Source of the DNA: Polytrichum commune
Lineage: Eukaryota > Streptophyta > Polytrichopsida > Polytrichales > Polytrichaceae
NCBI GenBank assembly: GCA_950295325.1
Contig: OX485805.1
Coordinates: forward strand, 6,016,501-6,080,500
Reading direction: 5' to 3'
Length of the DNA: 64,000 bases
Shown here: positions 3,021 through 51,244 of the stretch, piece after piece
Layout: each line of letters starts with the position of its first letter
Numbering within the stretch: position 1 is the stretch's first letter
The notes under the pieces: generated by a model
Databases searched by the model: none
The model's input: the letters and a program-made list of their open reading frames with translations, nothing else
Told to the model about the DNA's origin: nothing
Program-made: the position numbers and the translations under genes

Positions 3021-3090
3021 TATCTTATTCGTATTGCGATTTTTGTGAACAGCAGTGGCATTCAAGTAGTGATCACGAGGACTATGCAAT

Positions 3091-3250: not shown

Positions 3251-4649
3251 CATTAATCTCAAAAACTGGACAAGTACAAATGTCTCTTCATTAGAGTTGT
3301 AATTTAAATGGCCTATATGATTATGTGCAAGCTGTATGCTGTGTATGTTGGCTGTGACTCTTTGTGTATCAAGGCATTCTTACAGTGATGAAGGTCTGTG
3401 TGGAATCATTGGTTTGAGGTTTCTAGTTTTTTCCAATTTCCAATTTTGAAGTGTTGGAATTTAGGATCTTATTAGATTGTGTTTTGTGCAAGTTTTGATA
3501 CAACGAGGGAATCTCCTATAGGAGATGAAGTCACAAGATTTCTTTTCATATTGGATTTGGCAATACTTGAGGAAACACACATTCCGACACATATGTTTTG
3601 CAAACATCGGAAGAGACAATTCCTTTCCCGATGGAAGTGTCTAGGATAGAACTAATGATATTGATCAGAGACCTCTACGATCCACATCAATGTTTAAAAA
3701 ACAGAGAGAGTTAATCTTTTGAAACTGACACCCTCGAGCGTTTGCTTGAGGGACAGTGGAGCTCATCAACAAGAGTCAAAATTGGGTTTTGGGATTCAAT
3801 CAACGTGTCCCACAATTAAAATGATTCAAGTGGCCAATTGAGGAGTTGAGATTTAACATCCGGACGTTGGATGGTATTATGTAGCGGGCAAACAACGAAC
3901 CTAGACAATTCAAAACCTATTGTCAAAGTTCACGCAAAAGTTTTGGCCATTGTTTAGGGCAATGCCTTTGAAAAAACTGCATCATATGTTTTTGTAGAAA
4001 AATTCAATCTTTGGGGAGAGTCACCATCGACCTTGCATATATTTTGACTTAAAAGTGACTACAAGTATAATCTACACATGATTAAAAGAGGCTGGGGGGT
4101 GAAAGGAAGATCATCAGCGTATGTGACTTCCTTCTCTAAGGTTGGGTGGAGAACCTTCTTTACATCTCTCTCTTCTCTAACATCCTAAAGGTTAGTTTTT
4201 AGAGACGAAAACTATTTTCATTCAAAACAGCACACACAGGTAGGACGTACACGACAGAACATTAGAAAAGTCCCTTGGTTTTAAGCAGTATGAATCTTTA
4301 GCGACACATAACTCCAAACAGTAAGTCATAGGAAAACCAAAGTAGTTGAACAAGACTGAGATTCAGAATATACCTCCCCAGCAGAAGCCTCCAGTACCTA
4401 TGGACCTTATGTCTCGATCCTTGATAACTGGTGGATGTTTCTGGTACGTAATCTCTTCCAAATATGCTTCAAGAGTAATTTTTTAGCGCATCGGGGATGG
4501 AAGGTCCTTGACTTGCCTTGAGAGGGAACGAGATAAAGTGTCAACTTGAACATTCAGGCGTGAAAGGATAAAGTGACTGTGTACCAGAAACATGCAGGAC
4601 CAAGATGAAAGCAGCCACAGCTGAGGATGAACCACTAAGGTTCACTCAC
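3251..4649. other. intergenic, no gene seen
   Basis: No supported gene. It contains a small hairpin-forming sequence near 3732-3753 (CCCTCGAGCG, loop, then GCTTGAGGG), a form I associate with LTR-element remnants, but no LTR boundary or target duplication could be found. Confidence 0.4.
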
Positions 4650-5098
4650 AGACTACCCGGTGTGCCCTCATTTTCCTGCGAGATGTCTGTGGCCTGAGGT
4701 GCAGTTGTGCAACATGCTTCTGTAGCCATGTTCACTTCCTCCTGAAAATTCAAGACAAAAACATTTGTTGTACGTCTATCAGGATGAAGGCTGAAAGTCA
4801 GTACATGTAAGCACCTGAAATTGAAAGGGGAGAGATCATTGAAGAAATTCATATGAACAGCAAACAAGAAAGGCGCACAGGAATTCACAGAGACGCATGA
4901 CCTATATCAGATGTGATACTGGATATGGTGCAGGCCTTAATATAAGATGAAGGATCCCCAAGCTGTGTATGTGCATTGTTCATTGTCAACGTCCTCATTC
5001 CATCACTTGAAGCGAACACAGGAACGTCGTTCAAACTAAGGTAAGTGGGCCCAAAACGGACACTCTTAGCTCTGCGCCCACTTCTCCTTGCGTAGTAA
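4650..5098 (-). other. possible unrecognised coding exons
   Basis: Two minus-strand segments look like exons without a recognisable product. Segment 4902-5098 is open and of coding-like composition (it contains RRSGRRAKSVRFGP and LNDVPVFASSDG). Segment 4650-4741 follows a good acceptor (TTTTCAG) and ends at a good donor (GTGAGT), encoding a Glu/Thr-rich stretch with NMATEACCTTAP. The donor proposed for the upper exon (GTCATG) is weak. No start codon, family motif or complete gene model can be given. It may be the remnant of a gene or chance open frames. Confidence 0.25.
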
Positions 5099-5099
5099 A

Positions 5100-6677
5100 C
5101 ACGTGATTAGTTTGAGATGATCAGCAAATCTGAATCAAGGCCCTAAACATCGTCGAACTCTCTTGGTGCCGAGAAATGAAGATGCACATGTGAAAGTAAA
5201 CAAGCCCTAAAATAAACCAATTCCTGAATTCACAATATACTAACAAGGTGCATGAGATGGAATCATATACCTCGGTACGAGAAAGCAAAAGATCTTCAAA
5301 CACATAAATTCAATGTGTTAGAGCAGCCGGCACTGCGATTAGCGTACCAAGTCAAGATGACGTTGGGCAATATCCAATCAAACGCACGCGATGACTTGGG
5401 ACTAAGTTTTGTTTTGTAGGGCACTGAGTCTCAATATAGCGGTAATTCTCTATAACAGACCAGTCTTCTTCACAGATGAAGAGGCTTCAAAAGATTCTGA
5501 GGATTACCAAGAAACGCACATTCAACAAGCTCTCTACAAAGTGTGCTGTCAGGAGAACGAAGCCTCACTTCCTCTTCAAGCAGAAGGGAAAAAGACCTCC
5601 TAATCGAAAGGAAACCAAGATATGCACCAAATCAAACGCTTATCTCATTGCGAGATACAGATTGAGTTCAAATTTCTGATTGAAAATGATTCAATAGACA
5701 GAATCGATAAATTTCGCTATTCTCAGATTTCAAAAGGTGAGCACTCTACAAGAAAGAGGAATGTCAAGTCAACTAACTGCGAAAAAACACGAGACAACTA
5801 CCTTCTCCTCACCTTACGTCAATTCCTTGTAAATACCAAAAGGTCCACAGGATCGCCATTCCTTACCAATGCGAAACAAAAGTCTTCTCAACTCCTGTCA
5901 ACAAATCCACCAAATCGACATTCCCAATCGGACACTCTTAGCTCGTGGACAGAATATGAAAACGATATAATGAAGAACCCGCCTGCCTTCAAGATAACAT
6001 TTAGATTCCTAGTGGGAGAGAATGCGCGCACAATCCAAGAACAGAGAAGGTCGTTACAATTCTATTTATATACACTTTCCAGTAACCCTATGGATACGAC
6101 ATTGTGACAACCACTCGTATAGAAACGACATACTCTGCCTTACCAATATCTGCAGAGTACACCAATAATTTAATGAGTATACCTCACCAAGTGATAATAA
6201 AATGAGTATCCAATATCATATTATTAACATATGAAAAGCACATACACCACGCAAAAGTAAACACAAAAAACTAGAACACAACCAAGAGCTGCACAAGGCC
6301 AATCGCTATCAATTATCTACAAGCGAGAGAAATGAGAACTGAACCCAATCTTCTAGGCACTGTATCCTAAGTCCCTCTTGAAACACCTCACACAATCCAA
6401 TTTCCAATCAAATGTACATATTTTACCCTGCATCTGAAACGTACATGTGGCAAACACAATCGCTTGCAATCGATACTCTTCCTCTGGTATGCACCGCCAA
6501 AATCTACAACGAACCTACTACATCCAATTATCCACAATGAAAGAAACTGCAACAAAAGCGAAGACGTTGACCGACTCATCAGGCACCACGTCAACCGTAG
6601 AATTGACAGAAATTCTTGAAAGAGGTGGTGTTAAATAACACCATTTATGAAAAAAGGAAGCTGGAACCAAGGGATCT
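5100..6677. other. intergenic, no supported gene
   Basis: A plus-strand open frame at 5622-6107 (161 codons) has no recognisable domain, is rich in polar low-complexity residues and has no splice or homology support. It is not called as a gene. Confidence 0.4.
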
Positions 6678-7404: not shown

Positions 7405-8081
7405 ACGCTGTATACTGTATTTAGTGTCATATGGCATTTTACGTCACTGTGGTAATTATTCTAATGACACTTGGTAAACTTATAAGAGAAGTCTACAAGT
7501 ATTGTCATTCAACTTAATTTTAGTTCAGACACTAGTAGTTTATCTGCTTTTAGTTTGGTACTCCCTCCATCTCAGAATGTTTGTCCGTGTTCTGAACTTT
7601 GGCGAGATTAAGGCATGTTAACCATTGATCGAGTAGTCGTAAGTATGATTCATAAAATAACAATTATTCTGAAATGCCCCCCGAAGTTGCGGTTTCGAAA
7701 GACTTCCTGGTGATGAAAGTTTGACGCAATTTTCTTTGACTTCAAGCTTCGAATTTCTAGCTAGGCAGATAAACTGAACAATCATTTTGGGACCAAAAAA
7801 TTTGGGAGGTAGGACAATCATTTTGAGATAGAGGGAGTATATTCTACATCCTACCATTTCTGCAACAAAATATTGTCATGGATGATTAAATTTTGGATAA
7901 AAATCTACTTAGTAAGTGAGTAAATGCAACATCAACATTGTAAATCTATAATGACCCATATTTTCACAAGGAATGATAAATAATGTTAGGTTTACATTTA
8001 GCTACACATGCCATCTACAATTAGTATTGAGCAAGAAATATAGAATCGGCGACACTAAATGCAATATTTAGTGTAGTTTAC
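7405..8081. mobile_element. MITE family A, copy interrupted by a Stowaway MITE
   Basis: The left end (TATTTAGTGTCATATGG) matches the element end at 19162, and the right end (GACACTAAATGCAATATT, then TAGTGTAG) is its inverted counterpart and matches 31432-31560 in reverse orientation. The inferred terminal inverted repeat is close to CTACACTAAATATT. It is non-coding. A 277-bp Stowaway element sits inside, so this copy is the older of the two. Confidence 0.6.
7561..7837. mobile_element. Stowaway-like (Tc1/mariner) MITE
   Basis: Terminal inverted repeats of about 26 bp: the left end begins CTCCCTCCATCTCAGAATG and the reverse complement of the right end begins CTCCCTCTATCTCAAAATG. Both ends are flanked by the TA dinucleotide (7559-7560 and 7838-7839), the target duplication expected for the Tc1/mariner superfamily. 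CTCCCTCC is the hallmark terminus of Stowaway elements. The 277-bp length and absence of coding capacity fit a MITE. A transposase elsewhere in the genome would be needed for mobility. Confidence 0.9.
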
Positions 8082-8200
8082 TCAAGTTTATGTTAGGTCT
8101 AAACCGTCAAGAGTGCCAAGCTACATTATGTCAACAATTTGAACTATCTGTGCGGAACGTAGATCTGAACCGTCGAGAGCGCCAAAACTGCATTATGTCT

Positions 8201-9020
8201 CAAGAGGCGTAATTTTCATGCATCTATGAGTTCTCCGGAGAATCTTCTGGAAAGCTAGATTTTGTTCGTCAGAGTTGAGAGGTCGTTGATCGGCTAACCG
8301 GCATTTTTGGTCGATGACTTTATCCACGGATGAATGTGTCGATGAATTCTTTGAGAGAGTAAATCCAGGATCATTTCATTCATCATGTAGATCCAGATGA
8401 TGCACATAGATCACAAACATCTATGATGGTATGCATCAAGTATCCTGATGGATTGAAGTACAAACATCGATATTAAGGTTTTGTTTCTCGTTTCTATTGA
8501 TACATTACAATGCAAAAAAAACTCTAATTCATCAATTAATTTGATGGGCAGAACCTCGTGAGCTTAAGGGGCATTTCATACTAAGATAAAAACACCTAGA
8601 ACTAACATTGAACCTAAATCCAATACTATCTACTACAATCTTACATTTGAAGCCCCTAAAGGTGGTGTTGATTGTTAGTATACATACTTTATCTCCTTTA
8701 TTTTTTCTTTGAAGTGGGTGTGGAACCATCGAATTTACATTCTCCCACCTGTTGGCCATATCCGTAAATGCCTTTGAGGAGTGTAAAGTGCCATTCTAGC
8801 CTCAAAGTGCCATAGGGAAGATGGGGACAACCTTATCAAGAAACGGAAATAGGGGGTGGACGCTTCGGTTTTGTGGATATGGATTTGGAAATGGTGGGCT
8901 TGCTTTAAAAGACATTTTACACTAGTTTTGAGGGCCCATGACCATTGAAATCTAAAATCTTTCATTTGTGGAAAAGGCCAAACCTATCCCTTTCACTTTA
9001 CACTAGAGCATGCTTGAGGG
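8201..9020. other. intergenic, no gene seen
   Basis: Nothing supportable. Short minus-strand frames at 8532-8965 have no recognisable content. Confidence 0.4.
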
Positions 9021-9260
9021 AGAGAGGGAAAATTATTGTATTTGAGCATACCTCTCATCCATCTAACATAGAAACTTGACCCCCTACAAGTTTGTTGCCG
9101 AATCATCTCAAATGACCTAGAGTCAACTAATTCATAGTCTTTAAAGCTAATTCCGGTGTTAGATGAACTAAAAAAATGAAACCTCCATACTACACACTAT
9201 TTCGGGTTTTTTTTATGTTGGATGAATGAGAGGTGTGCTTGTATACAATAAGGTGGAGGG
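9021..9260. mobile_element. MITE family B, copy 1
   Basis: About 240 bp with imperfect inverted ends: left CTCTCATCCATCTAACATA and, reversed from the right, CTCTCATTCATCCAACATA, extending outward through TTATTGTAT. The interior (TTGACCCCCTA, AAGTTTGTTG, TAAAGCTAATT) is shared with a second copy at 23513-23746. No coding capacity. The exact termini and target duplication are not resolved. Confidence 0.65.
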
Positions 9261-9880
9261 TGCTTAAACCAACACTTCAAGCTATTGCACATACATATGG
9301 CTATGTGGTTGATATAAACAAAAAATCATACTAGCCTTTGGCCCAAACATAGGTATCAAGAAAGAAAATATATTTTTAGTCTCAATTGAATATTCGATGA
9401 ATATTCAAAGTCCGAACTACTAGCTTCCTTAAACCAATCCATAGGCTTTGTGTATGGCAACCTTGCATATGATGAGGATCCCCACCTTCATTGCCTAGAA
9501 TCAACACAACATAGTTGGGTACTAGACCCAAACTACATCAAAGCCCAAGTAGTAATGGTATGCAAAGCCACACGGCTACCTCCATGATCCCAACCGGTTC
9601 GCTTACAAAACCATCACCTTGCATCCTAGGAACCGACCCCCTTGCATCCCGGGAAATGACCCTTTTGTGCTTTGTGGGCCTACCTTGTTGGCGTTGTGAA
9701 TAGAATGGCTAGAATAAGCATTGACAAGCCACCCTAATCCCACCTTGAACCAACCCGAGATAGAGTGGAGTCCGTTGCCTACCCTACATGGAGGTAGTGG
9801 AGGCCGCTATGAGGTGACACCACTAATGGCACCTAAAACCGTCACTCCGTGGGCCCAAACCCTCCTACACCGCCGAGTAC

Positions 9881-35170: not shown

Positions 35171-35611
35171 TGTCGTGTAAATACCGATCGTGTATCACTA
35201 CAGCTCGAGTACCAACCACCACTAACAAACAACACTAAAACATAGCAAGGTCAAATATGAACAACACATCTCGATAGAGAAGGAAGAGAGTAGAACACTC
35301 GTAATAGCTCTAAATCTCTCTTCAAATGCACACAATTAGTCAAACTATCTCTCACTCCACCACGGGAGAATCCAAAAGTGCAAGAGAGGGGAGAAGAACT
35401 CAAGATTTATTGCAAAAACATGCAATCTACACCTTACACAAGCTCTCTTCACACACTCACTCACAAGACTTGATTTGGCAAGAATGCCAAGCCAAGGAGG
35501 AGGCTCCTCACTTAGGAGCCTCACTTTCCAAAACTAAGGTTCATCCATCTAACTCTAAATGAATGAAGCCCAACGGATGAGGTGCGGCCGCCGACGCCGC
35601 ATACCGTGACA
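35171..35611 (-). repeat. full-length 3' LTR copy, 441 bp
   Basis: On the minus strand it runs from TGTCACGGTATGCGG to GTATTTACACGACA, so it has TG...CA ends with short imperfect inverted repeats. The segment 35397-35611 matches the right-hand LTR at 45609-45824. It lies two bases away from a second, 106-bp LTR piece. Confidence 0.75.
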
Positions 35612-35613
35612 AC

Positions 35614-35719
35614 TGTCGTGTAAATACCGATCGTGTGTCACTACAGCTCGAGTACCAACCACCACTAACAAACAACACTAAAACATAGCAAGGTTACATA
35701 TAAACAACACATCTTGACA
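35614..35719 (-). repeat. truncated LTR piece next to the polypurine tract, 106 bp
   Basis: It begins TGTCAAGATGTGTTG directly after the polypurine tract and ends TTTACACGACA. All but the first few bases match the last ~105 bp of the neighbouring 441-bp LTR (35171-35275). It looks like a 3' LTR with its U3/R part deleted, standing in tandem with a complete LTR. Confidence 0.7.
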
Positions 35720-35731
35720 TGCCCCCTTTAG
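35720..35731 (-). other. polypurine tract
   Basis: The minus strand reads CTAAAGGGGGCA directly before the TGTCA start of the LTR piece. This is the expected site for plus-strand priming in reverse transcription and fixes the 3' end of the internal region. Confidence 0.75.
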
Positions 35732-36046: not shown

Positions 36047-36181
36047 ACAGCGAGGACAACTCCACTATCCAGATGGTAAAGAAGTCGAGGGTGGCCTCAA
36101 GCATGCCATGTGCCAACCACGTTGACATTCATCACACAAGAGCATAGTTGCCGCTCCTTTCTTCTATCCACACACAAAACA
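36047..36181 (-). pseudogene. PHD finger at the C-terminus of the retroelement polyprotein
   Basis: In one frame following the integrase C-terminal region lies the C4HC3 pattern CFVCG ... LLCDECQRGWHMACLRPP ... WSCPRC, with the conserved Trp two residues before the seventh Cys. The eight zinc ligands are all present. PHD fingers read histone H3 tails, mostly the methylation state of Lys4. Two in-frame TAG codons (36164-36166 and 36065-36067) interrupt it; the polyprotein then ends at TAA 36005-36007. Its position is where chromoviruses carry a chromodomain, so a role in choosing integration sites is a fair inference. I know of no standard Ty3 clade defined by this feature. Confidence 0.85.
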
Positions 36182-37611
36182 TGGAAGACCCTCTGGCACG
36201 ACGACCAGTTCAGGATGAACTGTACCCTCAATGGGTAGATGACATGGGGCACAGTTTTTGGAATGCTCGCAACATTCTCTGCCATCATTGCCTTCCAACA
36301 ACAACAAACCACTCGGCAACACCTCCTTCACCCGAAGGATAGTGCGCCCCGCCCTGATATCCAATGTCGTAGGCGCCTCACGTTGGAGATAAACATAATC
36401 CCCTTGCTGGAATCTCCGCAACTGAGGTCGGCAAGCACCACTGCGAATGCGTGCATAACGCAATGTGTCATGGTGCTGAACAATGGACAAATTCTCCATG
36501 GCTATAGGCATGGCCCTTTGGAAAATTGAGCCCGCTCCTGTAAACACTCTGCCCAAATGTTTGGGTCATCCAAGTCCACAATAGGAGTTAACTTTTCCCG
36601 AATAGAACTCGGGAGAATAGGCTCACGTCCATACAATAACTGATACGGGTTGTAGAATGCCAAAGAGGTCTGCCTACTAAATTGATAGCCCATAGCAATC
36701 CAAGGCAACATAAGGTCCCAATCCCGGTGGCTTCCCCGAAGTAATCGATATTTCCTCAAGCCACGCTTGATTGTCTTAACAACCCGTTCAGCCAAGCCAT
36801 CTGCCTCCGGATGATCCCGAGAGGTGGTGCAGTGATCTATGAGCACCTTAGTGCACAACTCCTCAAAAGCACCAAGGAACTCCCTCCTTTGGTCCGTCAA
36901 CATCTCAGCCGGTGCTCCAAAATGTGCCAACACACGATCCAAAAAGGCGGCCGCGGCCAACTCTGCAGAGTTTTGGGGTAGAGCAACAAGCTCAATCCAC
37001 TTGCTAAAATGCTCCACTATCACCAAAACGTACTTTGCTCCACGTGGCGTGACAACCAACGGCCCCGCAAAGTCCAGCGACCAACAGTAACCCAATCCCA
37101 TGATAGGTAAGGGCTGTAACTGAGGTGACAAGGTGTTAAAGCTAGACCTGACCCGGTCACAAACTTCACACCTCTCGACATAGGCAACCATCTGCTGATA
37201 CATGCCAGTCCACCAATATTGGCCACGCAACATCGAATGTGTCCTGCGTATGCCAAAATGACCAAGTTCCTCGTGCACTTGTCGCACCAAGGAGGCCCTC
37301 TAATCCGGCCTAGGAACAATACTCCTTGTCCCATCCGGCCACAATCGAAATAACAAACCGTTCTCCCAACGGAACCTTGTTATTTGATGTCCAATCCTAT
37401 CCATTTTCATTGCCGAAATAGACAAATGAAAGGTACCTTGTTGAAGCTTATGCAATACGGGAAGATCCTCCCATATATCCGCAATAGCTTGAGGCCGATC
37501 AGTCTCATCATCCGAGCCCTGTATCGGAATCTCAACAGATGCACCAGAAAATAAAGTGAGGTAAGCAACCGCGTGCCAACCTGGAACCGCATCTCGATCA
37601 CAATCTCCATG
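36182..37611 (-). pseudogene. retroelement integrase
   Basis: The zinc-binding N-terminus is present (HEELGHFG, then CEVC), followed by the DDE core: D in SLDFAGP, D in LTDQRREF and E in DGLAERVVKTIKRG. The Gly usually found after LTDQ is Arg here. The C-terminal region contains FQQGDYVYLQRE and ILRVKEVLPSGLLLLEG, a basic DNA-binding type domain. Lesions: TAG 37612-37614 and TAG 37300-37302 before the zinc finger, and a one-base frameshift near 36530 (ERAQF... to FQRAMP...) that moves the C-terminal part and the PHD finger to another frame. The active element would have inserted its cDNA into host chromatin through this enzyme. Confidence 0.9.
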
Positions 37612-39147
37612 CTACCTGGCCCCGGTCAAGTCCTCATCCGAAGGACTTGGATTGCGTGAGAGTCCATCTGCATCCATGTTGGTAATCCCAACACGGTGTA
37701 CCACCTGAAAGTCATACTCCTGGAGCAACAAAACCCACATGGCAAGCTTACCAGTAAGTTTATCCGACTCCATGAGCCACCGTAACGGCTGATGGTCAAT
37801 CACTAAAGTAAAGTGTTGACCATAAAGATACGGCCGAAAATGAGCAATAGCCCATACCGCCGCCAATACTTCTCCCTCGTAAGATGAATAATTAGCCTCC
37901 GCCGTGTTATTGCTTCGCGAAGCGTAAGCAATAACATACTCCTGGCCAAAATCATCCTTCCGAGTGAGAACCGCTCCCAAACCCAATGAACTCCAATCCG
38001 TATGCAACTGGAAGGATTTGGAAACATCCGGACGTCGAAGCACTGGAACCGCACCCAATTTCTGCTTCAATGTCTCAAATGCCTGTTGCTGCTCACGACC
38101 CCAAGTCCAAGGTTGGTCCTTGCTTGTGAGAATGGTAAGAGGCTTGGCGATCAAGCTAAAGTTCTTGACAAATCGACGATAGTAATTCGCCAAGCCCAAG
38201 AAAGCACGAAGTCTCGGCACATCGGCCGGTGCCGGGATCTTCTGCAAGGCGTCCACCTTAGTTTGTTGCACCCTAAGACCTCCTGGAATAATCATATGAC
38301 CTAGATATGCTAGTCGGTCATGGAAAAACTTGCACTTGCCATGGTGCAAACGCAATTCCCACTGCCATAATCGCTCAAAAATGGCTTGAAGATGCTTTAC
38401 ATGCTCCTGTGGTGTTTTGCTGAAAATGATTACGTCATCAATGTAACACTGAGCAAAAGGCAAGCCACACATAATTTGGTCCATCACTATTTGAAACTCA
38501 GCATGTACATTCTTGAGGCCAAATGGAAGAAACTTCCAATGGTATAGTTAATCCTTTCCATCATGATCAACTCCCCAAAATGTGGTCTTCACCCGATCTC
38601 CCGTAAGTAATGGGAGTTGGTGATGTCCGGATCTCAAGTCCAAGGTGCTAAAGACCCGAGAAAATCCGATGGCATCGAACAACTCCTCCGGGATTGGCAT
38701 GGGATACCGATCCGATTTGGTCTTCCGATTAACTAGACGGTAATCCCCACACATCCGTTTCTCCGTCCAATTGCTAAAGATATCCTTATTTGATGGCATA
38801 ACCGTAGCACAAGCATACTCCCCGTTGGAAAGTTCGATTAGCCATGCTGCCAAGAGCTCTCGGCAACGAGCCTGAACGCCAATCCGCTCAGAAACACTGA
38901 GCCTGTAAGGTTTCCGAAAAATGGGATGGTCGTCCTCCAACTGAATGTGGATGGGTTTTTCTTTATAACCTTCAAGATCCTGAAGGCTAAAAGCAAAACA
39001 TCTACAGTACGAGCGAATAAATGCTCGTACCTTCGGTGCCTTAGCACTAGTGAGACGATGGCCTAATTCAAGTGGCCAATCATCAAACTCTGTAGTCTCC
39101 CTCTCCACCAAAGGAGAACCACCTGATGCTGGCACAAACTCTAATTG
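37612..39147 (-). pseudogene. retroelement reverse transcriptase and RNase H
   Basis: RT motifs in order are PYRLSVSER, CGDYRLVNRKT, FSTLDLRSGHHQ, LPFGLKN (just after the premature stop) and the active site YIDDVIIFS. The RNase H region has D in LHTDWSS, E in YEGEVLAAV and D in VIDHQPL, so its catalytic residues are preserved. The order RT, RNase H, integrase is that of Ty3/gypsy. TAA at 38548-38550 breaks the RT between the DLRSG and LPFG blocks, in a position where the family normally has Gln, so a CAA-to-TAA change is likely. TAG at 39148-39150 lies in the Ser/Thr-rich linker before RT. Confidence 0.93.
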
Positions 39148-39312
39148 CTATTGAGAAGAGGGGGCATTGACCGTGCCCCCAGTCTCAGTGCTAGTACTAG
39201 AGTCTGGTATTTCTTCATCACCACCAATATGTGATGATGAAGCCACCACCGGAGGCGAAAAAACTGAAGCAGTGTAAAAATGTTGAGCTCGAAGCTCCTC
39301 CATCACATGCTG

Positions 39313-40450
39313 CTAGAATTGAAAAATTTGTTCGGTTTCTCCAACCATGGCGTGAATTTCCTCCTCCATGGATGTAGACCGCTGTGCCCCCTGACCAGAG
39401 TCCTCTGCCCCCAGAGACAACCACTGGTCATCACGATGCCTTTGCAATGAAAGGCATAAAGCAACAGTCCACACCATGGTATGAAGATCCATGGCTTGGC
39501 CCAACACGAAGCGTTGTTGGCCCTCAGAAAGGCCGGGAGCTGCGGTGGTGCCAGTGCGGAATCCCATAGTACGCTCCCGTTCGTCAGCCATTGGTTTGGT
39601 GTGGGTTTTGGTGTGAACATCCCACACCATACCCGGCCCCCGATCGCGAAAAACGAAGGACTGTGGAAACGTCATAAATGTGGGAAAGGCCCGCCGTGGT
39701 GCCCCCACTTTATTGACCAATGCCAATGGGGGTAAATCATCTCGAACAACCGGCAAAAAAATCCGGTGCGGATCCAAAATGTCATCCACCTTTTGATCGA
39801 AAGGTGAAGATACCGCCGAAAATGATGCGGCCAAAGTAGATGACGGTGCAAGGTTGGTCCAAATCCACCGAGGCTGGTGGGCATAAGAACCAATGCTCAC
39901 GGCATCCACAAAAATGGGATCTCCAAGGTGTTGACGAACATAATGATCGCCTTCCAACACCTTGTCCCGAGAGTCTCCCAACAAAGGTACATTCTCGAAA
40001 ATATACCCTGAAGGGGAAGGTTGGTGGGAAAACCACCACTGCATGAGGCGGATGAGGTCCCAAAATAGACTAGACCTGAGATCCTCTAATCCTCCGCCTG
40101 CTCCAGCACGTGAATGGCCCTGGTATGGCCATCCTGCAATCACCATATCCACTGGACCCAAGTGTCGTAAGTCGGCCTCACTGATGAGTGTGACATCACG
40201 AGGGAGACGTGAAAAACACCCATGAATGGCAGTCGGGTGTAACTGTTGAGGATACAACACCATCAACTGGTGAAGATGATGACGAGCCACACGGGTGGAC
40301 ACTTGAGAGTTGTCCACATAGACATACCGCTTGACCGTAAGGCCAACCTCCAATACGGCTGCTAATCCTGTGCCAATGCCCCCAAACAGCTTCACCAAAG
40401 TAATCCCAGTGTCTGGAGGGCGCCACAAAATGGGGCGTGCCAATGTGGAT
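39313..40450 (-). pseudogene. DNMT3-like cytosine-5 DNA methyltransferase domain in the polyprotein
   Basis: The motifs come in the canonical, unpermuted order of C5-methyltransferases: motif I LVKLFGGIGTGLAAVLEVG (about 40345-40400), motif II YVYVDNS, motif IV AGWPYQGHSRAG (40100-40140), motif VI YIFENV (about 39990), motif VIII PRWIWTNL (39851-39879), and motifs IX-X ADERERTMGF ... LSEGQQRFVLGQAMD. Similarity to DNMT3 rather than DNMT1 or CMT is suggested by FGGIGTGL and by the PRWxWxN block; DRM proteins are excluded because their motifs are rearranged. The enzyme type transfers a methyl group from S-adenosylmethionine to cytosine. Here the catalytic Cys of motif IV is Tyr (TAC 40123-40125), so this copy should be inactive. 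It lies in frame between protease and RT and ends at TAG 39313-39315. Confidence 0.9.
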
Positions 40451-41056
40451 AGACTATCCGATATGACTGGTGTGATAGAACTGAGAGAGAGGACAATGTC
40501 GTCACACCGTTGGAACAAGCCGGAGGAATCACGCCACGGAGGTAGAGGGTGTTTAGGATGGCGTACCAAGGTATGCCTAGGTGCCATCTCTCGTGGGTCT
40601 TCAACAACCCCCATGAATGCTAATGATTCCTCCAATAATGCAGATCCATAAGGCAATGTATCCACAATAACACTGCATCCAAAAACCATGGATAATGGTT
40701 CGATAGTGGCGGCCGCTGCAAAGGCCATAGGAATAAGTTCCCTACGGCCGTCTCTAGCTGACCAACCTGGTCGGATCCAAGCCTCCTCAGTCCAGTTGTC
40801 CAAACCAAAACCAAAGGGGTAAAGTGCTTGCTGACGAACTAAAATGTCATAGTTGGTCGCATCCGTCACCGCACACCTGAGAAGAAGAGATGCGGGTGAA
40901 TCTCTAGGCTTCACTTGGAAGCTAAGCTGTAATGGCTCCCGAGTATAACCAGTGGCCTGCTCCATGTGGCCAATAGATGTGACGATGGTAAATGGGCATG
41001 GAGCCAAGTCGTCGGTTGTCAACCGCAATGCCTGCACCAACTTTTTGCCGATCATA
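40451..41056 (-). pseudogene. retroelement protease, C-terminal part, and linker to the methyltransferase
   Basis: From MIGKKLVQALRLTTDDLAP onward it continues the aspartic protease begun at 42040-42375, with the flap/core pattern FTIVTSIGHME and ATNYDILVRQQALYPFGFGL. A linker of about 100 residues then leads to the methyltransferase. The first ~63 residues of the longer open frame starting at 41247 are not part of this protein; they are the inserted solo LTR read antisense. Confidence 0.85.
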
Positions 41057-42038
41057 TGTCGCGCACCTCTCCATGAGGAGTGCCCGAAACACCATGGGCA
41101 CAAGGGGGACCCCGGACCCCGGAGTGACACCCGGGACTTGTGGCGCCGTTGGTGAGAGGGCCCAAGTGATCCTACTGTGGGTGAGGACCCTGGGCGTTGG
41201 GAACGCCTCCCACCCACGGAGACTAGGAGGCATGAGGGTAAGGCCATGAGCTATGCCTAGCTCATGGCGTGGTGATTCTAGAATGCTCAAGAACACCTCA
41301 ATCGGAGGTGTGAGCTAGGAGTTATGGCCATTTGAGTGGGGCGCTGTCCCGGGACAGCGCCCTGCTACAGCAGTGCCTGGGAGTGATTCCCGGGACTGCC
41401 AAGGTTCAAACAGGCATAACTTCCTGAAGACTTGCCCGAATGCGGCAAGTGAGGAGTTTATTGGCATCTAAGTGAAGCGTAGATGAAGATAGAGTGGTTG
41501 GTTGTTCTGATCAGACATCATACAAGGAAGTTATGATGGTCTGAAGCTGCTGGGGGGGTTCTAGGCCCAGCAGCTAAAGGAGAATGTCCACTTGGCCCCA
41601 ACTCTTGGTAGAGAGACAAGAGGTTGGTTGACGGTGGGGTAGGGGCCCCGCGTAGGGTCCTAGAGGCTTATATGGGTGAGGTGGTGTGGCCTCACCCACC
41701 CGAGGCCGAACGGCATGGCTTCCATGGGCATTGGCCCATTGTGAGGCCATAGTTGCCTAGTATGGTTCGGGTTGTTGTAGTGTTGCTCCGGCAACGCGAA
41801 TGATCAACATAAGATTGGACTTCCATGGATGGAAGTCCACATCTAGGAATGGGTTACCGATTAAGGGGTGAGTCCCGAAAGTAAAGTAGGAGGGTTGGCT
41901 CCCTCCTATGAACTATAAGGTCCGGGGTAGGAGGAGCTAACCATTCGCATGGCGGAATGCGAATGGTTAGCGCTCGTAACCTTTGCTAGAATTGAAAATC
42001 GGCAAGATTGTCAAGGGGGGCTAGCAAGGGTTGCGACA
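41057..42038. mobile_element. solo LTR (982 bp) inserted in the protease
   Basis: The ends are TGTCGC...GCGACA (TG...CA with 6-bp inverted repeats), flanked by perfect 5-bp duplications TCATA (41052-41056 and 42039-42043; TATGA on the minus strand). Removing the LTR plus one duplication, 987 bp, joins DSGAQPVM to IGKKL in frame. There are no internal direct repeats and no coding capacity, so it is a solo LTR left after LTR-LTR recombination. Its sequence is GC-rich and unrelated to the host element's LTRs. It contains a perfect 24-bp palindrome (41339-41362) and a perfect 15-bp-arm hairpin (41936-41971). Confidence 0.93.
41936..41971. repeat. perfect inverted repeat, 15-bp arms
   Basis: GCTAACCATTCGCAT, a 6-base loop (GGCGGA), then ATGCGAATGGTTAGC. 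It lies 67 bp from the right end of the solo LTR and could form a stable hairpin in the LTR transcript. Confidence 0.9.
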
Positions 42039-42043
42039 TCATA

Positions 42044-42375
42044 ACAGGTTGTGCTCCTGAATCCATCATCATACACTGTGGAGCAACTCGAATAGGGTTG
42101 CCACCAGCCCGACTGACCATCAAAATGCCAGAATCATTCACCATCCGTACAACGCCAGGTCGAATGCCTCGACGCTCGCGAGCAGGCCGAGCAGCTACAT
42201 CTGAAAGATAAGCGGCGCCTGCAGAGGCTGGTGAATCATGAGACGAGGTTGGCTCTTGGCAATCTGAGTCGTGTGTCAAAAGACGCAATGGCCTCCGCCG
42301 CAAGCCTCGCTCGTAGTTTGGCGGCTTCCGTAGGATCCTCCGTGGTAGGAATGTCCGCGGTGGCTTGAGCCACAA
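42044..42375 (-). pseudogene. retroelement protease, N-terminal part with active site
   Basis: The segment ends MMMDSGAQPVM; DSGA is the catalytic signature of retroviral-type aspartic proteases. Upstream is a Ser/Ala/Arg-rich linker. The frame differs from that of gag, which stops with TGA at 42236-42238, and the two frames overlap over about 130 bp. This could be a native gag-pol frameshift or a small indel in this dead copy; it cannot be told from one copy. Confidence 0.8.
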
Positions 42376-44200
42376 TCAAAGAAGACGGGGATGCCTTTCC
42401 CTCCAAAATCCTACATGCTAGGTGAAAAACCTTAGCAGGTTGGACATCCAATGACAACCACTCCATCGCTGTGAACAAAGGGGTGTGCAACACTTTGGAT
42501 GCCAAAGTGTGCACCACGTCAGTCTCTGGATTCGAAGCCTCCAAGCTCGGATTACAACCACTGATAGATTGGGCAGCATCAACCAATCCAAAAGACAATG
42601 AAAGACGTGCCTGGCCAATCTGATCTGCAGGACCATTGTTCCGAGCGCGTAAGTTGTCCACATACTCCCCTATGGTCGGAGTGGCTTGTGATACGGTTTG
42701 AGCACGTGTTACCACTGCGGAACTCACCACTTGTCCAGAAGTTCCGAACATATAATAATCTGGAGTGGAAGAACTATCCTTAGTTCCGGAGGTAGATGGT
42801 GAGTCCAAAATTTGGCTGGATGACGCCAAAATTTTGAACCTCTCCTCCAAGATACCAATCTTCGCCTCCAACGTCTTTTCCCGTTCGGAAAAAGAACGTT
42901 TATCTGGATGGAGAGCGAAGCAGTTCTCCACCGCGTGATTGTTCCGCCCACAATGGGAACACTTCAACTGTTTGGATAACTGATTACACGCCCCCTTCGC
43001 CGCGCCCTTAGCGGGAACAAATGGTTTCCGCTTCGGAGTAATGACGGTCTGGGCTTGCCTTTGCTTCGAAGGACAATCCTTCTTAGCATGGCCCGCATGC
43101 CCACAATACCAACAATACAAGGTCTTGTCCACCTCTGCCTCCGCCAACCCTGCAGTCGCGATTAGAGCCTTCCGGGACTTGCTAGAATCCACTAGCAACG
43201 ACACCAAATCAGTGGTGTCGTGCTGACACAATGCACGATCACACTACTCTACCACGACAAATGCCTCTGCGAGTGTCGCCCGACCACCAAATTCCATGAT
43301 GATCCTGGGCAACGCCAAGTCAAGGAGGCGTTTGTTAATCTTTGACAATAACACCTTCACCAACTGACTTTCCGCGAACACACCTCCAAATTCTCTTGCA
43401 AACCTCGCCAACCTCGTATACATGGTACAAGGTGTATCGTCCTACTCCCGTCTGAAATCCTGTATCCGCTCCATCTGGTCACGACGAAAGCCTCCGTACT
43501 CCTCTTGTAGATGCAGCTCAAATGCCTGCAATGGCTCAAAATTTGGCGGAGCCCTTAAAGAAGCTAAAACCGCTTGGGTGGCCTGGGCATAACCCGATAG
43601 TGGAAGAACTGGGCTCGACGTACTCGCCACACTGGGAGCCCTTGGCTCAACAGGAGGAGCTCCCTCCACATCCACCACATAACCTCCCTCCGGTACCTCT
43701 GACTTAACCTCAGAAACAGCCATCAAACTGGAAGGTGCGCCTTCCTTCAATGCGGACACCAACTCAACCCGAGTCTCCCAGTACCGCTCCACCTGGCGCA
43801 GCTCCATCCAATGAGCATCCGTCCATTGCTCATAGGTCTGGAGGGCTTCGTGCTCCAAATGATGTGGTAGAAGCTCGAACGCATACCAATCGTTGAAGTT
43901 GGTATTGTGTTGACACTTCTTCCTCATCCATGTTTTGAACCGAATTTTCCAATCTTGCAGGGAAATGGTCCCCGCTCGACCAGAAAATTGGTTCCGGATG
44001 CCGTCTTGCGTCTCTTCCTCCATCTCGTCAAAGGATCTCACCCAAAGGATGTGAGACCGAGTGACAGTCCCCCACGCCGAAATAGGCTGAAAAGCCTCGT
44101 CGGGTACTATCACGAGTTCACTGTCCAAAAGGTCCAAAAATCGATCTTGCGATGATGCCGGAGACGGAGAACAATAATGTTGGCTCCGAGTTGTAACCAT
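42236..44200 (-). pseudogene. retroelement gag with two CCHC zinc knuckles
   Basis: Starts at ATG 44198-44200 (MVTTRSQHYCSPSPASS). The first part contains a capsid-like helical region (LQDWKIRFKTWMRKK, LELEH-type segments) followed by a Pro/Ser-rich linker. The third part, with EFGGV and LSKINKRLLDLALP, continues a retrotransposon capsid pattern. Two CCHC knuckles follow: CWYCGHAGHAKKDC and CSHCGRNNHAVENC, which bind the RNA genome. Two in-frame TAG stops, 43442-43444 and 43244-43246, interrupt one otherwise continuous frame. Function in the live element: assembly of virus-like particles. Confidence 0.88.
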
Positions 44201-45608
44201 AAAAACGCAATGGATTTGGTTACTGGAGCCAACAACCTAAACTAATGTGGTATTAAGGTAAAAACAACCTGCACATGCAACCACTACCAAATCTTATGGT
44301 CTGCTGGTTATCAATCCAGCCTCATCATAAGGGAATACAAGCACCACCAACTTGGTGCACACACAAGGGTCTCGTCGGTCATTACTCCGACATCACCCCA
44401 CAATATCCTATCACAAACTAGAACAACACAAAATGGGGCAATGTTGGAAGACTCCAACACAACAGTCCGCCAAGGGAGAAGGTACCACAACAAAATACAA
44501 GGAACAATACAGTGACAGTTGGATCCTCTTCCCCAAAACAACACTTAAAGAAAAATTGAAAGCGACCGCGACCAATTGGCACCCGCCTGCGGTTGGTGGT
44601 CAAAATGAAGAGCCCCTGTTGCTTAAAAAAAGAAAATGCATATCACTCATTTTTCTACCACTACCTCAAAATTTCTCCTCACAACAATGTCAGGAATATG
44701 TGTTTATAAACACAATTCGACCCTAATAATAATTTATTTTAGACCGAACGAAAATTCCACATGCCACCCAATTCTCAATGACACCCCCTCGAAAATTTCG
44801 TGCAACACAATTCCTAAAAGAAATCACAAGTACCTTAATGTTTTGTAAGAGATTTGGGTTTCATCTTGTGTTTTTGATAAATAAAAACAAGGAATTGACC
44901 TCTTAGAGAGAAAAAAATAGAAATAGAAAAGAAATAGAAAAGAAATAAATAGAAAATTAAAAAAATCTACTATTTATTTAATTAATGCATTAATTAAATA
45001 AAACAAAGACAAACTAATCTAATAAAGAAATTTAAAAAATAAAGAAATAAAGAAATAAAAATGATTATGAACACGTGACGAGTTGTACTTGCAAATACCC
45101 GGGTCTCAACCTATTATGCCTAAAATCCCGCGTATCATAACTTAAGTCTCCAGACAACAGACGGCGGGCAATAGAAAGCGGAAAAATAAAGTACCTAGTA
45201 GACGCCTGCAATCGCAAACAAACGCCGGCAGTCAGACAGACCAACAGACAGCCGGTGACAGACACTGACGCCGGCAGTCGCAGACAGTCTGCAGACCAGG
45301 GGCCAGGGGCGAAGCTGCAAAGGGAGGCATGCTGCCTCCTTCTTCTTCAAATTTTTTTTTTCAACTATTTGATCATTTTTGAAGATCAACAATGTCTCCT
45401 TCACCTCATACTTCACAAATTCAAGCCTCTAGACAACTCATGGTAAGAAATTCCATGTAGTATTGAGAAATTTCTCACCACAATTCAAAATGATGTCTAA
45501 ACTTTAAAGCAACCTCTTTCTTCTTGTTGCTCCGCTAATTCACGATGTTTGTTGTTCTCCACTCCACAATCCCGCGACCAATTGTCCTCACAGTCTTTCT
45601 TGAGGATT
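44201..45608 (-). other. 5' leader of the retroelement and unmatched LTR part
   Basis: About 1.4 kb between the gag start and the recognised LTR remnant. No primer-binding site complementary to initiator tRNA-Met was recognised. The LTR part equivalent to 35171-35396 is not found here, so the 5' LTR is either truncated or replaced at about 45608. The 44880-45060 part is A-rich low complexity. Confidence 0.5.
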
Positions 45609-45824
45609 AAACTCAAGATTTATTGCAAAAACATGCAATCTACACCTCACACAAACTCTCTCCACATATTCACTCACAAGACTTGACTTGGTAAGAATGC
45701 CAAGCTAAGGAGGAGGCTCCTCACTTAAAAGCCTCACTTTCCAAAATTAAGGTTCATCCATCTAACTCTAAATGGATGAAGCCCAACGAATAAAATGCGG
45801 CCGCCGACACCGCATACCGTGACA
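45609..45824 (-). repeat. 5' LTR remnant of the DNMT-carrying element
   Basis: 216 bp closely matching 35397-35611, including the CGGCCGCCGACACCGCATAC landmark and the outer terminus GTGACA. About 10% of positions differ from the 3' LTR, many of them transitions, which suggests an old insertion. Confidence 0.8.
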
Positions 45825-48800
45825 TCTCTCAAAAAATTATGACATTGTCGGTGTGTAGTTCTTAGGATAACTTGAGAAAAATGTAGCTCCTTCTGACTTA
45901 TTCAAAATTTCTTGAAAATTTTAACCATGATTAGATAAACTAAGCGCAAAGCATCTCACAAAATTTTAGACCTATATCATTTTCTGTCTAAAAGTTATGC
46001 CCATTTCAGCGTACAAATTTACGAAGAAATTTAAGAATATTATAACTGTGTCTAACTTATTCCAAACGCCTTCAGATCCCAACAATAATTAGAAAAAATA
46101 ATTTTATTATTTTATAAGAAAATATCTCATTCTAAATTTGCTAATAAATTAAATATTACATCTCTAATTATTTTTTCTATTAAATTTAAAGAAATATTAA
46201 AGAAATATTATTATTAATATGATATAATTCATAATATTTTTACCATGCCTTAAATCCAATATGATATAATATAAATTGCAGTACGAGCTTATGTATTAGG
46301 AAGTAATTACAAACATTAATAATCGGAAATACAAATAGAATACATTACTTAACACTAAAATTCATATAAATATGGAAAAAAAAATTCTAATTTTTATATT
46401 ATTGAATGATACAACTTACTACATCTTAATTTCATTTCAAGAAGCTCAATTATTATAGCTGGTCATTTATATATAAAATTGATTATATTATTTATCTTTA
46501 AAAAACTTCAATTTATCTTTATATAAAAATTATGTTTTATGGCCTAAATACTAAAAAACAATATCAAATGTGAAATCATATTATGAATATTCATGTGATA
46601 AATTAAAATTAATCCTTGAATATGACATCAAAAAATTTGCCTCTTATAACTATATTTTTTCTTAATTTCAATTTTTTATATTAAATAGTATACAAATATA
46701 AATTATATTTTCATGATAATAATTTTTTTATAAGAATAATAAAGGTTATTCCCAGGTATTGGTGTAATATGAACATTGCACTGGATCTAGTCTGAATAGC
46801 AATATCAACAACTTTATTAATCGCATGGTGAAATGCAGTGACTTGCACTTCAGTGCGGTTAGGGTGTTTATATTTTAAAGCGAATTTTTTACCAATTACG
46901 TCAGTGCTTTCTTAATAAATATGGTGATGAAAACGGTCGTATATGTAGCTCTCATTATCGTAAAGCCTACTTTACAACTATAATTATGAGACAATTTTTT
47001 GTTATTTAAGTCAATTGTATATTGTTAATTATATATTGATGAGTTGATTAGGAACGTCGGCCATATTGAGCTCCGGTCAAAATTTATTGTTGGAGCGATT
47101 TTTATAATTCTAAATGTAGCGGAGACTTATTAATTTAGACAAATTAATTCAATGATCTTGCCGAATATGTTTCGGCTTGCTCTAGCCAGTTTGCAACGCT
47201 TTCTTCAATTGGTACCATTTTATTTTCAGCTGTCTTTCTAGTGTTGCATGAAATACCTCCTCTATGACTCGTCGTGGATCTCCTTCATATTCAAAGGACA
47301 ATTAAGAAATTAATATTTTTGAATATATTTTATTCTTAAAATTTTAATATTATATTATACTAAGCGATGATTATTTATTTATATTATAGGCCAGAAAGGC
47401 TTTACAAACCATCTGACAACATGCACAAGACCATGTATTATATATTCATAAGATTTTTTGGATAGTTAAAATTTTTTTATAACTTATAATTACTTATGGT
47501 ATATGTAATTAAGTTGTTGTTAAAAAATTCATTACTGATTATAAATTTAATTAAAAATTAAAAAAATCTAATATTAAATATATTTCTTAAAAATTAACGA
47601 ATAGTTTTCATAATAGATATTTATACGTAAATAATTTTAGTATATATATTATATATAATTTATTTTTAAAACACTAAAAATACTATTTTTTAAATTTAAA
47701 TAATTCTCTTTACATTATGAATAACCGAATCATAAGATTTATAAGTAATTATTATTTATTCGTATGTAATTTATGTTATAAATAAATTATTTGATTTTAA
47801 TAAATTATTTAAAATATATGTTTCAAAACCGTCTAGAGAAAACGATTTTGAATCTTTTTAATTTTTTTAGAAATAATATGTTTGATTTTTGGAGAAAATT
47901 GGGAATGATGCAAAATTACTCCATTTCGGAAGACCTTAGAAAGAATAAGCAAGGAAAATACCTCCCTTTTAAGTTGACTTAAGAAAGAATAAGTAAGGAA
48001 AGAGAATTGTTGCCTTTCGGGCGACAGAAGAATGAATAAGTAAAAAAGGACAGTTATTATTTTTTCGAGGACTATATGGGTGTGCGGGAAAAATTATGAA
48101 GCTGGGGAGGGAGACTTGCGGCGTTAAAAGCAAACTAAGAAGAAGGTAACAAAGAAGAAGAAATAATTGTATTCGAATATATCGGAAAGAACTAGTAAGG
48201 AAACTGGCCTTAAAGATTAGTAGGAAAGAAAGAAAACTACGTAGAATGAGAACGTTCAGGGGAACACACAGGGGACATGAGATGACTAATTAAGTGTTTA
48301 TGTGGGTACAAAACAGCAGACTTATCATGATATTTGAAATTTTATAAAACAAGTTTTATTTAGCGTGCCCTCACGAGACACCTTACCATATTTAATTCAT
48401 AAGCATCTTAAGATGTTTAATAATATATTAAAGTGGGCCTTACAATGACACAATGTATATACATGTGCTATTGAAGTTTAAACACCTTGAATTTTTTTCT
48501 AAGATATTCATGACTGTTTCGAAAATTCAAGTAAAAAACTATCAAATCTAAATATTTCTAAATCTCTTATATGGATATCTGAACACTCTAGTCTCTTAAT
48601 TTATATGCTTTTGTAATTTAAACATTATTTTAACTGTTAAAAAAACTTTTGAATGGTCAGAACATTCAAAACTAATGCTTTAAAGGCGATAGAGTTATCA
48701 TTTAACTCAGCATGTGTTAGAGAGTTAACTTAATCGGGAGTTATCCATCCGACCCTTGTTTGACAAGTAACCGTTAATTGTGCCAACTAATGGTTGACTA

Positions 48801-50122: not shown

Positions 50123-51244
50123 ATGATTCATGGGTTGGATCAAAAGACGTTCATGTTTTTGCAACTCGCATTTGCAGCAACTTGTAATTCGTCTGAGTTC
50201 TTCAATACAAATGAGTTGGAGGCAGGAGGTCAGCCTTCTGTGAATTCTATAGAAGGTGTTCGGTATCAATTAGCTAGTGCGAGGGCAACTCCAGCACAAA
50301 TCAAGAATCTTACAACCTTCACGCTTGATGAGTTTAAGGATTTGTGCCTTGATGTGTGTCCAACTATTGCTGCGCACGCACGTATTACTGGTGAGCTACG
50401 GGTTGGCGGTGGGCGGTGGGCGGCCCTATAAACTCACTTCTCAACAACAAATTCTATCTTTTCTTATGTTTTTGAAGTATGACAACACATCCATGTTAGA
50501 TGCGTTCCATTGGAATTGGTTTAAAAGTGCTTTGAATGACGATGGTATATTTGTTGTTTCTTGTGTCATTGAGGCCTTTCAACATGAAATAGAGTGGCCT
50601 GATAGTTATGAGCGAGAAGTGTTAGGTCAACAACATCGTGTTTTTGAGGGTTGCATAGGGTTTATGGATGACACTTTGGTTATGATTCGCCGTCCTTATC
50701 GGGACCCAAATCACTCACGGTTCTTTAATGGTAGAATTTTTTTTATTCAACCAACAACACAATGGTTGTTGACCACAATGGTTTATTCATGTACATCGAC
50801 CATAGATATCCTGGATCTTTTCATGATGTGTCCTGCTTGCGTGCATCCTCATTGGATAGGAACTAGAGAAATTATTTTACGTACACAGATAATTATTTTG
50901 AGTATGTTCTCGGTGACCCCGACTATCAGGACCGAAATCAATACATTGTGCGAAGGCTAGGTAATCAAGAACAAATCTTGCTAGCTGATAATGATGCTAT
51001 AAATGCTTATAATAAGATGCATGCATGTTTAAAGGTACGGGTGGAGTGGGGATTAGGAGGTGTTAACCACAAATGGAAAAGATTGTTAAAAAAATTTGAC
51101 TCCACAAAATCCAAGTACATCCCTTTGTTTAAGATTGCTTGCTATCTTACTAATTATTTACACTGGCGAAAACTAGACTTCACTTACCATATTGGAGAAC
51201 GCAACGATGACGAAGATGAAGATGGTTGGGAGGGTGACCTTTAG
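50123..51244 (+). pseudogene. PIF/Harbinger (DDE) transposase, frameshifted
   Basis: The conserved blocks are those of plant PIF/Harbinger transposases (HARBI1 family): LTSQQQILSFLMFLKYDN, DAFHWNWFKSAL, a catalytic region GCIGFMDDTLVMIRRPYRDP, then NGLFMYIDHRYPGSFHDVSC (in a second frame), DNYFEYVLGDPDYQDRNQY, and a C-terminal VEWGLGGVNHKWKRLLKKF with an acidic tail. The first Asp is in GFMDDTL where the family has GxxDGT, so Gly is replaced by Asp. Frameshifts lie near 50415 and at the T-run near 50733, and a TAG stands at about 50869 where Trp is expected (DRN-stop-RNYF). It is a dead copy. The termini of the element were not found. Confidence 0.9.

Follow-up and report, generated by a model that had tools for sequence, protein, structure and literature searches.

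A DNMT3-type cytosine methyltransferase carried by a high-copy Ty3/gypsy-like retroelement family of Polytrichum commune

A 64,000-nucleotide (nt) stretch of the Polytrichum commune genome (contig OX485805.1, positions 6,016,501 to 6,080,500; hereafter the window) contains a Ty3/gypsy-like retroelement of 10654 bp on the minus strand, from 45824 to 35171. In the direction of its genes, the element consists of a left repeat remnant, gag, protease, a DNA methyltransferase (DNMT), reverse transcriptase (RT), RNase H, integrase, a PHD-finger remnant, a polypurine tract and right repeats. Its ends, TGTC at the left and GACA at the right, were set by comparison with other copies in the genome, and the flanking sequences GAGA (45828-45825) and GAAA (35170-35167) form a 4-bp target duplication with one mismatch. 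The inserted enzyme is a DNMT3-type C5-methyltransferase, nearest to DNMT3 by both sequence and fold, and belongs to a whole family of elements rather than to one copy. The window copy itself is dead, having lost the catalytic Cys of the enzyme and suffered a split of the protease and stops or frame changes in most of its genes.

The DNMT lies in a minus-strand reading frame of 645 amino acids (aa; 41250-39316), in which the domain has approximate limits of 39440-40425. This frame matches the Pfam DNA_methylase model (E 1.7e-7, 31.4 bits against a cut-off of 22), and among solved structures its sequence is closest to DNMT3A and DNMT3B; the PDB sequence matches include DNMT3A (3e-8), the plant DRM-type chain 4onj (6e-5) and HhaI (0.04). 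Searching the PDB with a profile of 24 homologues returned DNMT3A at 3.5e-20, a plant DRM-type chain at 2.3e-10, HaeIII at 5e-7 and DNMT2 at 0.002. The predicted model of the domain is of moderate quality (mean predicted local distance difference test score of 71.5, with residues 238-282 and 350-385 poor), and in a structure search with it the DNMT3 family accounted for all of the best 50 of 1156 matches (best E 3e-16). A chance motif match is ruled out by these Pfam, PDB sequence, profile and structure matches. What we take to be motifs I (LVKLFGGIGTG, 40366-40398), IV (GWPYQGHS, 40111-40134), VI (YIFENVP, 39985-40005), VIII (AHQPRWIWTN, 39853-39882) and the region of motif X (ADERERTMGF, 39559-39588) follow one another in the canonical, unrearranged order. 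The original prediction of a full canonical motif set holds for the order of these five, but the set is not intact, as the WPYQG of motif IV has Tyr (40123-40125) in place of the catalytic Cys. Because this Cys is absent, the window copy presumably could not methylate its own copies. An origin from DRM is rejected on the canonical motif order, that of DRM being rearranged with VI-X before I-IV, and an origin from DNMT1 or CMT is judged improbable, no such chain being among the PDB matches listed in the sequence and profile searches.

The other genes were read partly against a related element on a 9.3-kb contig (CADCWO010000201.1; hereafter L002), in which Gag-protease-DNMT and RT-RNase H-integrase-PHD occupy the same frame with a single stop between them. 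Part 1 of gag (43445-44236, minus strand as for all features of the element) aligns to the L002 gag by blastn and is closed by a TAG below 43445; part 2 (42239-43243) includes two CCHC-like knuckles (Pfam zf-CCHC 0.039, under the cut-off). The first half of the protease (approximately 42039-42150) carries the active-site stretch MDSGAQPVM, also present in L002, whose protease matches Pfam Asp_protease_2 at 7.8e-4. It is separated from the second half (41056 to approximately 40780) by a 982-bp insertion (41057-42038) with TGTCGC...GCGACA ends and a 5-bp duplication, TATGA, that looks like a solo long terminal repeat (LTR) of another element. Behind the DNMT stand part 1 of RT (38551-39147, with a stop below 38551), part 2 of RT with RNase H (37615-38547; Pfam RVT_1 4e-18, RT_RNaseH 1e-34), the H2C2 and rve domains of integrase (36505-37299; Integrase_H2C2 8.5e-17, rve 3.9e-13), a C-terminal part of integrase in a different frame (36167-36565), homologous to the second open reading frame (ORF2) of L002 by blastn, and the PHD-finger remnant (36047-36181), read by eye with the L002 PHD as comparison and containing stops. 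Stops and frame changes thus affect gag, the tail of the DNMT (39313-39315), RT, integrase and PHD. The Pfam matches for DNA_methylase, RT, RNase H and integrase bear out the proposed position of a DNMT between protease and RT of a Ty3/gypsy element. The further suggestion that it is in frame with both neighbours is right in so far as DNMT and RT share one frame, but two TAGs lie between them and the protease is split by the insertion. Likewise, the interval 39313-41056 does enclose the methyltransferase assigned to it, but also the second protease half; the residues of the reading frame upstream of 41056 come from the insertion.

The window's own genome (407.8 Mb in 64 contigs) was searched for further copies. 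DNMT-encoding sequence was found at no fewer than 107 places, most spanning the whole 385-residue query, with ORFs of up to 1372 aa; a search with the Pfam family scored 123 places, and many copies carry stops. The Cys of motif IV is kept in 28 of the 30 best genome copies and IFENV is exact in 27, and the Cys is found in 65 of 69 homologue domains, the window copy counted among them. A search with RT identified at least 127 copies, with frames of up to 1048 aa. When these were paired with 190 DNMT places, pooled from three DNMT searches of the genome, 92 of the 127 listed RT copies had a listed DNMT match on their own strand no more than 6 kb upstream, the commonest distance being 769 nt. Absence of the domain from other copies, named in the original prediction as grounds for abandoning it, is therefore not what is seen.

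Pairwise comparison of DNMT copies gave a ratio of nonsynonymous to synonymous substitution rates (dN/dS) of 0.25 among 18 stop-free copies (139 pairs) and 0.30 among all 29 compared (392 pairs). Between families, with five copies from the window's family, two from a second one in the same genome, and L002, the ratio was 0.08-0.13 (dS 2.0-3.2) in 11 of 17 comparisons, the other six being saturated. These low values within and between families show that the DNMT has been under long purifying selection, weaker than that on RT. The second DNMT-bearing family (L045, L048 and other loci) has frames of up to 1386 aa and TAG CAA TCA at its DNMT-RT junction.

A protein search with the DNMT part found 46 clusters, in which the named plant and algal members are from Calypogeia fissa, Marchantia polymorpha and Klebsormidium nitens, while a search with an algal-type DNMT found 94, with Scenedesmus among the names. 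The integrase end of L002 gave 261 matches, and among the 120 listed are Haematococcus, Volvox, Tetrabaena, Marchantia and Klebsormidium. L002, a plant-type retroelement, is itself filed under a cyanobacterial metagenome-assembled genome, probably through contamination, and P0006 is likewise named after a bacterial one. Two domain orders can be distinguished: type I, protease-DNMT-RT-RNase H-integrase-PHD, and type II, RT-RNase H-DNMT-integrase-PHD. In the 53 frames that span RNase H and integrase, a set drawn from the integrase-end search and not chosen by DNMT, the gap holds a DNMT in all 20 cases where it measures at least 583 aa and in none of the 33 where it is shorter; in three of these 33 a DNMT precedes RT in the same frame. 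Over all 250 clusters, partly selected by DNMT, the gap holds a DNMT in 81 of 81 long cases and in 1 of 36 short ones. The DNMT stands directly before integrase in type II elements of Volvox reticuliferus (P0073) and Tetrabaena (P0079). No recognisable motif IV is present in P0079 of Tetrabaena socialis or in P0166, both of type II, which may represent either decayed copies or lineages that are no longer active, and Haematococcus P0061 has no DNMT in its frame.

In a tree of the DNMTs (57 rows), type II falls on one side of a starred branch (100/97) and type I is weakly grouped (67/10); the Klebsormidium-like P0043, from a metagenome, joins type II (99/91) on a long branch. A tree of integrases built by a quick method (71 rows) places 36 type II rows in one part, which also holds two short-gap rows, and groups Klebsormidium P0161 with other short-gap rows, the window included. 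This pattern would fit a single old capture followed by a shift of the domain within the element, without proving it. Host enzymes for comparison were obtained from the genome search, the protein database having given no host DNMT3 genes. One locus (L066, C7:33953500-33961500; about 2090-4300, plus strand) has a multi-exon DNMT3-type gene with the canonical motif order, and another (L065, C2:4699500-4707500; about 4068-5810, minus strand) a rearranged DRM-like gene in which the VI-X exon precedes the I-IV exon. Both are multi-exon members of the same enzyme fold family, and both lie outside the retroelement group: a branch (94/93, not starred) separates 28 retroelement DNMTs from the same-genome DNMT3, the DRM-like gene, a phage/bacterial enzyme and human DNMT3A, although a grouping of the host DNMT3 with the retroelement enzymes was not rejected (p 0.30). 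Taken with copy number, conservation of the Cys and selection, the tree rules out a recent fragment of a host gene, the other outcome named in the original prediction as refuting it. A sequence from IMG/VR (L001) was considered as a further retroelement and rejected as a phage/bacterial methylase; at 7965-9317 of this viral contig the same motif IV, GWPCQGHS, occurs as in the retroelement enzymes, the protein being otherwise distant (32% identity).

The Gag-protease-DNMT part of the family ends at UAG CAA UUA, with RT-RNase H-integrase-PHD in frame behind it. In the window this is the TAG CAA TTA at 39142-39150, the TAG of which (39148-39150) is the family-conserved one of the two that separate DNMT from RT, the other (39313-39315) being a premature stop of the window copy. 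Reading towards RT, the last in-frame stop is TAG CAA TTA in 25 of the best 30 copies and TAG CAT TTA in one; in the other four RT is not in frame, and TAGCARYYA is found at the same position. L002 has TAG CAA TCA, and a further 20 loci included 11 readable to the junction, all with the motif, five as CAA TTA and six, from the second family, as CAA TCA. The change from TTA to TCA stays inside the UAG CARYYA rule. In tobamoviruses, an in-frame UAG CAR YYA with coding sequence on both sides serves as the type I read-through signal (PMC3542737, PMC2754532); the latter source also cites rice gypsy elements as candidates for read-through. Since a conserved stop of this leaky type stands between DNMT and RT, the DNMT is probably made together with Gag, and Pol in lower amount. 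At the far end of Pol, a PHD finger closes the integrase ORF: it is detected at the end of L002 ORF2 (E 4e-10), a model built from it matches 10 of 10 right-end stretches from genome copies, and the window copy keeps a broken version.

The termini of the family depart from those of standard LTR elements. In the window, a left remnant of a repeat termed B (45610-45824) is 91% identical to 35397-35617, the two remnants being separated by a Kimura two-parameter (K2P) distance of 0.093 over 221 nt. At the right, the polypurine tract AAAGGGGGC (35721-35729) is followed by repeats A (35616-35720), B (35275-35615) and A' (35171-35274), the last 95% identical to A. Ten genome copies were examined, the left end being found in eight and the right end in nine. 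All eight left ends consist of B (about 340 nt) without A, while the right end is A-B-A' in seven of nine, with A' shortened in one, and A (about 105 nt) alone in two; a right-end search with the window copy matched at least 40 places over the A-B-A' length. Identical LTRs at both ends, as in Ty3/gypsy elements, are not found, and a standard LTR structure is ruled out; the arrangement B...A-B-A' is that of the split direct repeats of DIRS/PAT elements. Target duplications of 4 bp, read by eye, nevertheless lie outside TGTC...GACA in all seven copies with both ends (CCTT, CAGC, GGCT, ATAA, ACTT, TGTC and GAAT), and those of the two copies ending in A alone are still perfect. The polypurine tract directly precedes A and the primer site directly follows the left B, from which an LTR of the form A+B is expected, so that B-A' would mark where two LTR ends were joined. 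This junction reads TTCTC-TGTCGAGG (TTCCC in L088) in 10 of 12 copies; one of the other two is without TGTC and one retains the polypurine tract. Variation of this kind is typical of newly joined LTR ends in two-LTR circles, and the B-A' junctions look like junctions of such circles. The two B repeats of single elements differ by a K2P distance of only 0.006-0.018 in six of six copies, implying that both arose together. Integration from circular DNA by the DDE integrase is thus considered likely, and appears to have taken place at the palindrome GACA-GC-TGTC between A and B (GACAGCTGTC in other copies; GACAGTTGTC at 35608-35617 in the window), the proposed integrase site. The copies ending in A alone would fit one-LTR circles.

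The primer site seems to be served by the element itself. Behind the left B stands ACTTGGCAAGAAT, whose complement lies within B; the repeat also contains AATAAA. Measured from the start of the primer site, the self-complementary run in eight copies is 16, 14, 5, 15, 9, 9, 13 and 14 nt, compared with maxima of 8 nt for shuffled sites and 9 nt for other positions in the leader. L002 has a different primer site, ACTTGACAAAGAT, with its own matching partner of 13 nt; as site and partner both differ and yet pair, both sides have changed together. This suggests, by analogy with Tf1, that reverse transcription is self-primed. Outside the element, the sequence just beyond its left end (46001-48000) is very AT-rich, with a GC content of 0.225, and a plus-strand ORF at 50274-50957 resembles, by eye only, transposases of the plant-transposon type.

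The explanation favoured as a whole, to which a probability of roughly 0.55 is assigned, is that the window holds a decayed member of a high-copy Gag-protease-DNMT3 family whose intact copies would act as follows. Read-through of the UAG would yield RT-RNase H-integrase-PHD at a lower level, and the DNMT, made at the level of Gag, would be packaged in the particle. Reverse transcription would prime on the element's own repeat, the element DNA would be circularised, and integrase would cut the palindromic A/B junction. Carried in the particle, the DNMT would methylate cytosines of the newly made element DNA ahead of integration or during it, and the methylated copy would pass for already methylated host DNA or be protected, the PHD finger steering integration by reading a histone tail. 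We infer self-methylation, read-through, packaging, self-priming and the circular intermediate alike from these features, and marking the new copy as methylated DNA may be the likeliest purpose, with self-restraint and an RNA target as its main rivals. More tentatively, and with clearly less probability, these elements may be joined in a green-plant Ty3-like lineage in which integration does not proceed from linear DNA through the LTR ends: one- or two-LTR circles would be cut at the internal palindrome by the PHD-ended DDE integrase, after a DNMT3 made at Gag level by way of the leaky UAG had methylated the circle before its entry into the chromosome. The capture would be old, the enzyme lying between RNase H and integrase in green algae and between protease and RT in liverworts and the plant studied here, with the domain having moved within the element.

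Several observations weigh against the favoured explanation. Of the 127 listed RT copies, 35 are without a listed DNMT match upstream, and constraint on the DNMT is weaker than on RT (dN/dS 0.25 against 0.11 over the same 11 copies). The runs of just 5, 9 and 9 nt in three of the eight primer sites are no longer than those that controls reach (8-9 nt). A two-LTR circle offers two A/B junctions, either of which might be cut, but the mirror class of insertion, with B-A-B at the left, is absent from the eight left ends, which the model leaves unexplained. Furthermore, the K. nitens retroelement DNMT produced no methylation in yeast, a result that its authors call inconclusive (PMC5890265), and the steps of expression, packaging, methylation and integration are deduced from sequence. 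A doubtful alternative to the circular intermediate is that the end structure is inherited, A-B-A' being copied as such and integrase using linear DNA. The identity of 10 of the 12 B/A' junctions would then be expected, but with A missing from all eight left ends and the primer site right after B, reverse transcription should make A+B LTRs, and AATAAA in B, in its assumed role, would leave A' out of the RNA. The junction with an extra polypurine tract and the one short of 4 nt are also more like variable, newly joined LTR ends, and perfect duplications around copies ending in A alone are not accounted for by inherited ends.

Concerning the purpose of the enzyme, self-restraint is unlikely, though less so than the remaining possibilities: here the DNMT would help to silence new copies, sparing the host and, by that route, the element itself. 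Plant hosts silence transposons by methylation, and the same idea is raised in PMC5890265; in addition, 22 of the 31 private changes in the window DNMT are C>T or G>A, as decay of methylated DNA would give, a count from the window copy alone with no control copy. Selection within a lineage should, however, favour copies that lose such a brake; instead, the different families have retained the domain, and B repeats that are 0.6-1.8% apart indicate recent insertions. It is less probable still that RNA is the substrate, or that the enzyme binds nucleic acid in the particle without catalysis. Its place beside Gag and its presumed packaging would bring it near the genomic RNA, RNA methylation has been raised for the SymbioLINE enzyme (de Mendoza et al., PMC5890265), and the window copy lacks the Cys. 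The catalytic residue, retained by 28 of the 30 copies and by 65 of the 69 homologue domains, argues otherwise, as do best matches to DNMT3 with DNMT2 reaching only 0.002, and the methylation of CG in yeast by a related retroelement DNMT (PMC5890265). A neutral passenger captured by chance is largely refuted: stops in many DNMT copies and the lost Cys of the window copy would agree with it, but between-family dN/dS of about 0.1 at dS near 2-3, intact catalytic motifs and the occurrence of the DNMT in distant element lineages do not. Marking of the new copy remains the preferred purpose.

Retroelement DNMTs were previously known from one charophyte alga and dinoflagellates, in line with the original prediction (PMC5890265, PMC12344493), and their capture is restated for streptophytes and dinoflagellates in the second of these sources. 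The claim to an undescribed kind of system is not supported, as de Mendoza et al. published in 2018 on Gypsy elements of Klebsormidium nitens that carry a Dnmt3 under purifying selection and have repeats like those of DIRS, the latter noted in the legend to Fig. 4 (PMC5890265). Judged mainly by titles and the starts of abstracts, no paper on a DNMT-bearing Gypsy element of a land plant was among those listed by full-text searches, most subscription papers and all bioRxiv preprints lying outside their scope, and searches for a PHD finger in such integrases and for split direct repeats with a Gypsy integrase listed none on this family. A high-copy plant family with open frames, and a stop that would tie the dose of DNMT to that of Gag, offers a handle on why an element should methylate despite host silencing. 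The end structure provides a possible reading of the alga's DIRS-like repeats without a tyrosine recombinase, the idea that a eukaryotic DDE integrase inserts circular DNA becomes checkable, and the age of the capture can be tested on the two domain orders, which span algae and land plants.

Among known systems, the family has the protease-RT-RNase H-integrase order with a DDE integrase of Ty3/gypsy elements (Metaviridae). With KnitGypsy-Dnmt3 it shares an LTR Gypsy-type Pol, an unrearranged Dnmt3, multiple copies, purifying selection (Ka/Ks <0.2 in the alga) and repeats in a DIRS arrangement (PMC5890265), and thus it is a Gypsy Pol with Dnmt3 under purifying selection of the same kind. The searches also matched K. 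nitens P0044 (DNMT) and P0161 (RT-RNase H-integrase-PHD), both on one 65862-bp contig. The host lineage is different, and the UAG CARYYA stop, PHD finger, circle-type junctions and self-complementary primer site go unmentioned for the algal element in the passages of PMC5890265 consulted; the words 'PHD' and 'readthrough' have no occurrences in its main text. SymbioDIRS-Dnmt3 of Symbiodinium, the enzyme active on CG in yeast, likewise has Dnmt3 in Pol and split-type repeats, but uses a tyrosine recombinase as described in that paper, whereas the present family combines a DDE-type (rve) integrase with target duplications of 4 bp. The same distinction separates it from PAT/DIRS elements, whose terminal-repeat arrangement, A1-coding-B1-A2-B2 (PMC2685390), it shares; its Pol is RT-RNase H-DDE integrase instead, and no tyrosine recombinase is among the Pfam matches of the window and L002. 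Three further likenesses are drawn at the level of sequence: to the type I read-through of tobamoviruses, with the UAG and CAR YYA in common and, in the window copy, also the CAA before UAG; to Tf1, which primes itself through a primer site complementary to its own RNA; and to IS911/IS3, in which a DDE enzyme acts on a circle junction. DNMT capture by Gypsy elements is hence already published, and what is added here is the gene layout, the stop, the PHD finger and the end structure.

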